This document shows positions 20,479 through 22,759 of a DNA stretch of 64,000 bases, in pieces. This stretch comes from Bacteroides sp. (GTDB taxonomy: Bacteria; Bacteroidota; Bacteroidia; Bacteroidales; Muribaculaceae): NCBI GenBank assembly GCA_014801945.1, contig JAAVDF010000025.1:54569-118568 (forward strand), read 5' to 3'. A program made the translations under genes and the position numbers. The notes beneath the pieces are model-generated. The model did no database searches, was not told the DNA's origin, and saw nothing but the letters and a program-made list of their open reading frames with translations. The first letter of the stretch is position 1. Each line of letters starts with the position of its first letter.

Positions 20479-20772
20479 TTGAATAAGAAAAAATTGGACA
20501 ACAAAGCATTTATCAGCCGTCTGTCAAAACGCCTCAACCGTGAACCGGCTGAGGTCACGACACTTGTCGAGGGGCTCAGCGTTATTATCCGGGAGGCAGG
20601 TTCTGAACTTGATTCCATCGCTGTTCCCGGATTCGGAACTTTCAAATCGACAAAGGAGGAAGAGAAAGTTGTGACTGACGAGGCTACCGGAGAGCGTAAG
20701 CTCTATCCTCCGATGATCACTATGGAGTTTCAACCCAGCATTGTACTTAGGAAAAAGTTAAGCCACAGATGA
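20479..20772 (+). CDS. HU-family DNA-binding protein (TTG start inferred)
   Basis: LDNKAFISRLSKRLNREPAEVTTLVEGLSVIIREAGSELDSIAVPGFGTFKSTKEEEKV. Confidence 0.7.
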   Translation: MNKKKLDNKAFISRLSKRLNREPAEVTTLVEGLSVIIREAGSELDSIAVPGFGTFKSTKEEEKVVTDEATGERKLYPPMITMEFQPSIVLRKKLSHR

Positions 20773-22361
20773 ATCAGAAAATACCCTTCCACGAACTTTC
20801 AGCCCGCATCGCACTGGCCACAGGCATAGGAGCGGAAAGCGCGGAGCTGTTCGTCAAAAACTTCTTCGATCTGCTCTCTGAGGCACTGACAAGCGGTGAA
20901 AGCGTCCGCATCAAAGGTCTGGGAGCTTTCAATGTTACCGAAGCTGACGGAGAACGCAGTATTGAATTTTTGCCGGATAAGGAGATTAACGATACGATTA
21001 ACGCTCCATTCGCAATGTTTGAAGCTGTGAGCCTCAGTGACGACGTTTCTGACGAAATGCTGGCTGAGATTGAAAACGATGTTCAGATCGAAGCTCAAGC
21101 TCCTGTGACCGCGGATGAGACAAAAGTAACACCGACTTATGATCAATCCGTCACGATCGAACATGAAGTCCTGAATGATAGCGAGGAAACACCGGCAGAT
21201 ACAACAATCGGAACTGATACAGAGGAGGAAAACGGCACTGTGGCTGCTTCAGAACCGGAGACATTGACTGAACAGGTGATTGAGGATGAACCGTCCGAAC
21301 CGACTGAATCATCCGAACCTAATCAGACTGGTTCTACTGAATCATCTGAACTTAATCAGGTTACTTCCGAGGAAGCGACAGAGATTGTTGAAAAGGAATC
21401 TACCGATGTAGTCATCGCAACCCAAGCTCAACCTGAAACACCGGTGGCAGCCGTGGAAACCGAACCTGTGATTGAAGAAATCGTCGAAGAGGAGCAACAA
21501 CCTGCCGAAAAGGACGATGAACCGATTGCGGCGGAATCAGCAACCGTACAGTCGCAGCCCATCCCTACGCCTGTTCAATCTTTCGCTTCTCAACCTGCAG
21601 TACAGGAAGAGCCTGTTCAACCTACCGTTTCTAAAACTACCGTAGAGAAAGTTGCCACGCCTGAACCAGAGGTCGTGCAAAAAGAAACAGCTGAAGCTAT
21701 CAGCCACCCGATACCTCCGGTCAGACCGGTGGCAGAATTAGTGGAGGACGAGGAAGAATATGTAACTACAACCGCGGTCAAGACCAATGGAGGAGGGAAT
21801 TTATGGATCGGACTCATTGTCGGACTTATTGTAGGTCTCGCTCTCGGAGCGTGTGGTGTCTATCTTGCCATTGACAAGATCTTCCCGACCATGCACCAGT
21901 CATCCGTATTCAATGAAGAGGATTCAGCGGAAGCTGATGAGCTCTTTGATGCTATAATGTCTGATTCCGTTTCAGAGGAAGAGACAGTACCGACCGATAC
22001 CGTTGCTGCCGCCCCCTCTGAATCCACCCCTGAGGTTCAACCTGAACCAGCCCAAGAAGATGAGCCGAAACAGACTGATACCGCTCCTGCCACCGCGACC
22101 ACAGCTGCAACAATAACCGATACCGTCCGTCGTGGCTATCTCATCCATGATATGGCGAAGAAACATTACGGCAACAAGGATTTCTGGGTCTATATCTACG
22201 AGGAAAACAAATCAAAGATCGGAAATCCCAACAACATGCAGGCAGGTGTCGTACTTGTGATACCGCCTGCCGAAAAATACGGCATTTCCGCAAATGATCC
22301 TGAAAGCCTCCGTAAAGCCCGTGCCAAAGCCGGAGAAGTCCTGCGTAAATTCAGTAAATAA
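20769..22361 (+). CDS. HU domain - acidic/Pro-rich linker - TM helix - LysM domain membrane protein
   Basis: N-terminal HU (MNQKIPFHELSARIALATGIGAESAELFVKNFFDLLSEAL...IKGLGAFNV), TM GNLWIGLIVGLIVGLALGACGVYLAI, C-terminal LysM-like IHDMAKKHYGNKDFWVYIYEENKSKIGNPNNMQAGVVLVIP. Confidence 0.8.
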   Translation: MNQKIPFHELSARIALATGIGAESAELFVKNFFDLLSEALTSGESVRIKGLGAFNVTEADGERSIEFLPDKEINDTINAPFAMFEAVSLSDDVSDEMLAEIENDVQIEAQAPVTADETKVTPTYDQSVTIEHEVLNDSEETPADTTIGTDTEEENGTVAASEPETLTEQVIEDEPSEPTESSEPNQTGSTESSELNQVTSEEATEIVEKESTDVVIATQAQPETPVAAVETEPVIEEIVEEEQQPAEKDDEPIAAESATVQSQPIPTPVQSFASQPAVQEEPVQPTVSKTTVEKVATPEPEVVQKETAEAISHPIPPVRPVAELVEDEEEYVTTTAVKTNGGGNLWIGLIVGLIVGLALGACGVYLAIDKIFPTMHQSSVFNEEDSAEADELFDAIMSDSVSEEETVPTDTVAAAPSESTPEVQPEPAQEDEPKQTDTAPATATTAATITDTVRRGYLIHDMAKKHYGNKDFWVYIYEENKSKIGNPNNMQAGVVLVIPPAEKYGISANDPESLRKARAKAGEVLRKFSK

Positions 22362-22527
22362 CGGATGCTTTGTAAAAATCAGCTCGGTTGTAGGACCTAC
22401 GTTTACGCCGGCCGAATCTCGCACCGTAATTAGCTGATTATCACATTGCCTTGCATTTCGGCCAGCGCAAGCGCAGAACCTAAAACCCGGAATTTATCCA
22501 TTCTGTCACAGCCTCTACCAGAAGATA

Positions 22528-22593
22528 AAAACAAGCCCTCTGACAGCCCTGTCGCACCACTGATTGCGATATGTAGGTCAGAGGGCTTGTTTT
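22528..22593 (+). terminator. Terminator-like hairpin, 17-bp arms
   Basis: AAAACAAGCCCTCTGAC-type left arm and GTCAGAGGGCTTGTTTT-type right arm, followed by a T-rich tract. Confidence 0.7.
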
Positions 22594-22759
22594 ATGCTTT
22601 TTTATATATCACATCCTATATGTTAAACGAAAAATAGCTAAAATTAACACACTTTTTTCACACAATAATTGTTGTTATTTATAATTTTGTACTTCAGTTA
22701 ATCACTGCAGATAGATAATTAAATTAACACAATACATACGAAATTTCACTTTTGAAATC

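Follow-up and report, generated by a model that had tools for sequence, protein, structure and literature searches.

The window analysed here, a stretch of 64,000 nucleotides from a 2.6 Mb assembly of the genus containing Duncaniella muris, carries on its forward strand two overlapping genes for proteins with HU folds. The first (HU1, 20494..20772, +) encodes a small soluble HU-family protein, and the second (P2, 20769..22361, +) a protein of 530 amino acids in which an HU domain (HU2), an acidic linker, a transmembrane (TM) helix, a second linker, a LysM domain and a helical tail follow one another. HU1 ends at 20772 and P2 starts at 20769, which gives the ATGA overlap that the initial annotation had described between the ORFs 20479-20772 and 20769-22361. 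HU1 scores 41.8 bits in a Pfam profile search with PF00216, over the cut-off of 22.4, and its AlphaFold model (mean pLDDT 95) has its nearest PDB folds among HU and IHF proteins (TM 0.7-0.84). The upstream gene was thus rightly called a soluble HU, and only its start calls for revision. The mechanical ORF runs on the + strand from a TTG at 20479 to 20772 (97 aa), but the N-termini of relatives read 'MDNK.F', and the TTG at 20494, which would give a protein of 92 aa, is therefore the likelier start. A Bacteroidetes-type promoter pattern matched twice in the window, neither time upstream of HU1, and a sigma-70 promoter scan of the window gave matches no more frequent than chance.

The HU2 domain of P2 (residues 1-95; 20769..21053, +) has a complete HU body with helix 3, and its arm is a tight hairpin. 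PF00216 matches residues 9-60 at 30.0 bits (cut-off 22.4) with no arm aligned, and the body is modelled confidently over residues 7-81, with 1huu_B, 1riy and 4p3v as the best PDB matches (TMt 0.90-0.94). The concern that this N-terminus might fail to score as HU was not borne out, and the HU domains of other P2 proteins reach 66-96 bits across the whole domain. Behind it lies a linker that is predicted to be disordered and cytoplasmic (about residues 96-344; 21054..21800, +), rich in Glu, Thr, Val and Pro (20% Glu, 14% Thr and 10% Pro at 111-343), with a net charge of -53 over residues 96-343 and, past a helix at 95-109, pLDDT values mostly of 37-57; the disordered Glu/Pro-rich linker of the initial annotation is accordingly upheld. 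The single TM segment (residues 345-371; 21801..21881, +; hydropathy 2.44) is also a helix in the AlphaFold model, and a second linker follows (21882..22112, +; pLDDT mostly 46-59) that is predicted to be periplasmic from the positive-inside bias of 131 relatives. The chain ends in the LysM fold (residues 449-499; 22113..22265, +), recognised from PRK11198, PDB 7pvc (Kbp) and AlphaFold, and in a helical tail (22266..22358, +; AlphaFold helix 511-527) in which the alignment of relatives shows a conserved KYGI..ND..S..KA motif.

A key finding from our survey of relatives is that the two genes travel together. It brought together 131 distinct P2 proteins from numerous families of Bacteroidales and from one family (f134) outside the class Bacteroidia, and in 129 of the 130 whose genes could be tested (that of L142 lies at a contig edge) HU1 stands directly upstream, usually with an overlap (a gap of -4 in 48 cases, -8 in 22 and -11 in 9). 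Such recurrence means that the pairing is not due to chance, and the survey of its conservation proposed at the outset finds the pair across Bacteroidales and in f134. The sole clear loss of HU1 is in L058, where P2 comes directly after the apparent end of rimO. Within the window's own genus P2 was matched in 23 of 24 relatives, with HU1 upstream wherever the locus was complete, and named carriers include Barnesiella, Dysgonomonas, Parabacteroides distasonis and Bacteroides finegoldii. Among 396 genomes sampled across the class, strong P2 matches were confined to Bacteroidales, and in a phylum-wide sample to Bacteroidales and f134. The latter family may be Balneolaceae, as judged from genus richness and kinship only, and the presence of P2 there would fit vertical inheritance followed by many losses as well as a single ancient transfer. 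Some of the records carry labels that seem mistaken. Four contigs of NALB MAGs (L077, L095, L105 and L144) are titled Staphylococcus, Paenibacillus, Lachnoclostridium and Pseudoflavonifractor, yet their gene pairs are of the Muribaculaceae type and the titles look wrong; and two records labelled as plasmids of P. distasonis (L193, NZ_OY725834.1) and B. finegoldii (L194, NZ_OY725888.1) hold core genes such as ftsY and rimO, with rpmB/rpmG among those in L194, and look from their gene content like pieces of chromosome.

Each of the 131 P2 proteins has one strong TM segment, as had been noticed in the window protein, and in five of them another, weakly hydrophobic stretch is present. None of the relatives has an N-terminal signal, and 139-395 residues precede the TM segment. 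In the 20 residues flanking the membrane on either side, Lys and Arg average 3.8 on the HU side vs 1.5 on the LysM side, and the bias lies toward the HU side in 107 of the 131 proteins and is reversed in 7; the window protein itself has few flanking charges (2 vs 1). Taken together with the positive-inside rule, the lack of a signal and the long stretch before the membrane favour the N-in/C-out topology first proposed, and the statistics support an HU domain in the cytoplasm and a LysM domain outside.

The explanation that we favour is that the pair forms a tether between nucleoid and cell wall. HU1 would pair with the HU2 domain as a heterodimer, P2 would span the inner membrane, the HU domain facing the cytoplasm and the LysM domain the periplasm, and the heterodimer would be held beside the membrane on a long, flexible, acidic leash, tied through the membrane to peptidoglycan if the LysM domain binds the wall. 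In Bacteroidales and f134 at large, the heterodimer would most likely bind DNA and so link the nucleoid to the wall, perhaps for chromosome positioning or anchoring. We hold this reading, in a form that is derived and possibly repurposed in the window's clade, with a confidence a little short of even. The HU folds, the LysM fold, the co-inheritance of the genes and the topology all speak for the tether of the initial annotation, and the DNA-contact features of the window protein speak against it. As a hypothesis it is good for the family at large and weaker for the window genome, where both DNA arms are degenerate.

To compare arms, we counted residues from the GFG.F motif to the Phe before helix 3, a span that in canonical HU measures 34 residues and carries a proline at its tip. 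The HU2 arm of the window protein is 18 residues long (strands 52-59 and 62-69 join directly in the AlphaFold model) and the domain is net negative, while the HU1 arm keeps its length of 34 and has a net charge of -2 and a Glu at the position of the intercalating proline. Loss of DNA-contact residues, which the initial annotation had named as grounds for refutation, is therefore largely borne out for the window pair, where the canonical contacts look lost from both subunits, and this counts against a DNA tether in this genome. The canonical-type HU encoded elsewhere in the genome (contig 22, L039, 93 aa) has an Ile in place of the tip proline. Most of the wider family has full-length arms and a basic HU1 arm. 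In f134, HU1 and HU2 both have full arm length and the proline (27/27); among Bacteroidales, the HU1 arm is 34 residues long in 98 of 101 proteins (33 in the other three) with the proline in 71, and the HU2 arm is full or nearly so in 65 of 104, its proline nearly always replaced by Val or Ile.

The two arms also appear to degenerate jointly. The median net charge of the HU1 arm is +5 beside an armed HU2 and -1 beside an armless one, a difference for which the Mann-Whitney p ignores relatedness and is not usable as a probability, and HU1 retains its proline in 90 of 91 cases with an armed HU2 vs 8 of 37 with an armless one. Joint loss of this kind would be expected of two arms that work in a single complex. 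Placed on the tree, the correlation is left with just 2 independent pairs whose branches are supported, and it is not significant; since it stems mainly from one clade, with two supported contrasts, it is suggestive only, and we do not take the joint loss as statistical proof that HU1 and HU2 form a heterodimer.

Selection nevertheless still acts on the armless version. In comparisons of near-relative pairs (NG86, with saturated-dS comparisons dropped and the armless pairs L012/L013, L023/L087 and L005/L006 included), dN/dS is about 0.00-0.09 for HU1, HU2 and LysM, with one outlier (0.19, HU2 of L139/L147), and 0.13-0.29 for the linker. HU1, HU2 and LysM are under strong purifying selection, the armless clade included, and the low values in armless pairs show that the armless version is a working gene and not a relic. 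As the HU2 arm is lost and the HU1 arm acidic in the Duncaniella-like clade, the pair there probably binds DNA weakly or in a non-canonical way, or has exchanged DNA for a protein partner, with the bridge between membrane and wall still under selection. We put forward only tentatively a fuller version of the tether, in which two genes of Bacteroidales and f134 encode a dedicated, heterodimeric HU system of the membrane that physically ties the chromosome to peptidoglycan, and in which one Muribaculaceae lineage lost the DNA arms of both subunits and kept the bridge. If true, that lineage would show in nature how an HU dimer can become a membrane adaptor.

The same observations are those that would be expected if the HU fold had been repurposed, HU1 and HU2 serving a LysM envelope protein as a dimerisation or adaptor module on the membrane side and, in the window's clade if not elsewhere, leaving DNA unbound. 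A deleted HU2 arm, an acidic HU1 arm without proline and a net negative HU2, in domains that remain strongly constrained, all fit such a module, and a repurposing of HU domains has reportedly been proposed before for the CCDC81 clade. The full-length arms and basic HU1 arm of most family members, and the proline of both subunits in f134, speak against this explanation, which we consider rather unlikely.

The tether further depends on what the LysM domain binds. The predicted structure is a confident strand-helix-helix-strand (E449-452, H459-467, H470-479 and E495-498; pLDDT 96-98), the nearest solved structures are those of Kbp (7pvc/7vcm), and the family profile matches Kbp with an E-value of 5e-10. 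In profile searches, Pfam LysM (PF01476) gave no match over its cut-off at the C-terminus of P2, and the NCBIfam model PRK11198, 'peptidoglycan-binding protein LysM', aligned with residues 442-501 at 25.7 bits, below its cut-off of 134. On the strength of the model, the C-terminus is a LysM fold related to known LysM proteins, and the LysM-like domain first described stands as a fold, if not as a Pfam match. Both the score under the Pfam threshold and the nearness to Kbp weigh against a wall tether. Kbp is a cytoplasmic K+-binding protein, and perhaps the LysM domain of P2 likewise binds some ligand other than peptidoglycan, in which case there would be no tie to the wall; the degenerate LysM C-terminus of two relatives in family f56 (L189 and L190), in which HU1 and HU2 are conserved, would also be in keeping with this. 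We judge it improbable, given that the NCBIfam peptidoglycan-binding LysM profile finds a match in 62 of 67 relatives (the window protein falling below the cut-off) and that the topology predicts a periplasmic LysM, whereas Kbp is cytoplasmic.

The genes around the pair offer a further view of its role. In P. distasonis and B. finegoldii the order is ftsY-rimO-HU1-P2-moxR-bat, and ftsY-rimO lies upstream of HU1 in Dysgonomonas, Parabacteroides and Bacteroides; the f134 pair has unrelated neighbours. Because the neighbours vary between groups, the conserved unit is the HU1-P2 pair itself. In the window, HU1 is preceded by an OmpA-family gene (a scored match) and a gene resembling prolyl-tRNA synthetase (by sequence inspection), and P2 is followed by moxR (a profile match) and then by DUF58-type and Bat-like genes, assigned by inspection and in agreement with the annotation of the corresponding genes in P. 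distasonis and B. finegoldii. Between P2 and moxR lies a strong hairpin (22528..22593, +) that is unusually long and near-perfect, resembles a terminator and runs into a T-rich stretch. It was not flagged by a simple consensus scan and may terminate on both strands; the RNA fold of 22505-22605 reaches -41.4 kcal/mol (z -7.0). That P2 is instead a membrane-bound regulator or envelope-stress sensor, its LysM domain sensing the wall and the HU pair altering local DNA architecture or transcription, is very doubtful, for although the same anatomy would serve and the moxR-DUF58-bat and ftsY-rimO neighbourhood is conserved in several families, P2 has no regulatory domain, the pair persists without these neighbours, and in the window the hairpin lies between P2 and moxR.

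How the chromosome is held or positioned relative to the envelope is poorly known in Bacteroidota. A conserved membrane-crossing HU protein with a wall-binding fold would make attachment of the nucleoid to the envelope directly testable in genetically tractable gut genera, represented among the carriers by P. distasonis and B. finegoldii. In public annotation the pair of these named species is given only as 'HU family DNA-binding protein', a label that hides the membrane and LysM parts of P2. A literature search for a HU-LysM protein, which took in Burroughs et al. (2017, Cell Cycle 16:1093) through its citation in PMC8195603 only, returned nothing relevant, and two B. thetaiotaomicron table entries could not be assigned to the pair; the two-gene HU/LysM form appears to be undescribed in the literature searched.

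Among known systems, the HU/IHF nucleoid proteins share with the pair the HU fold of HU1 and HU2, and an IHF-like two-gene heterodimer is the obvious model; they also share with the armed relatives an NPxTG-type arm tip in HU1. Unlike P2, they have no linker, TM segment or LysM domain, and the window members lack their canonical arm contacts. Kbp/YgaU-type proteins have the LysM fold in common with P2, Kbp being its closest sequence match, but Kbp has no HU or TM part and carries a BON domain.

Closest in plan are the HU-CCDC81_bac_1/2-TM-SPOR proteins of Bacteroidetes (PF18174/PF18175), a clade for which a role in chromosome partition is said to have been predicted. PF18174 is over its cut-off in 171 of 198 Bacteroidales genomes, and this system and the HU1-P2 pair co-occur within the same genomes. 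The window genome itself encodes such a second HU-to-wall candidate (contig 34, L038 718-1677, - strand, 319 aa), with HU-CCDC81_bac_1/2 domains, a TM segment and a SPOR-like C-terminus; it scores 90 bits with PF18174 and, below cut-off, 26 bits with PF18175 and 15.7 bits with SPOR. We considered whether the pair could be this system split in two and rejected that reading, since HU1 reaches only 14.5 bits with PF18174 (cut-off 26) and P2 only 22.9 bits with PF18175 (cut-off 35), the wall domain is a different one (a profile search for SPOR found no match in P2, which has the LysM fold at that end), and a CCDC81-SPOR-type protein is present elsewhere in the genome. As the HU-CCDC81-SPOR proteins follow the same plan, with two HU-type domains, one TM segment and a C-terminal domain of peptidoglycan-binding type, the idea of a bridge from HU to the wall is not in itself new. 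They carry both HU domains in one chain and end in SPOR, whereas in the window module HU1 stands alone as a protein, PF00216 is the best match of the HU domains, and P2 has a long acidic linker and a LysM as its wall domain.
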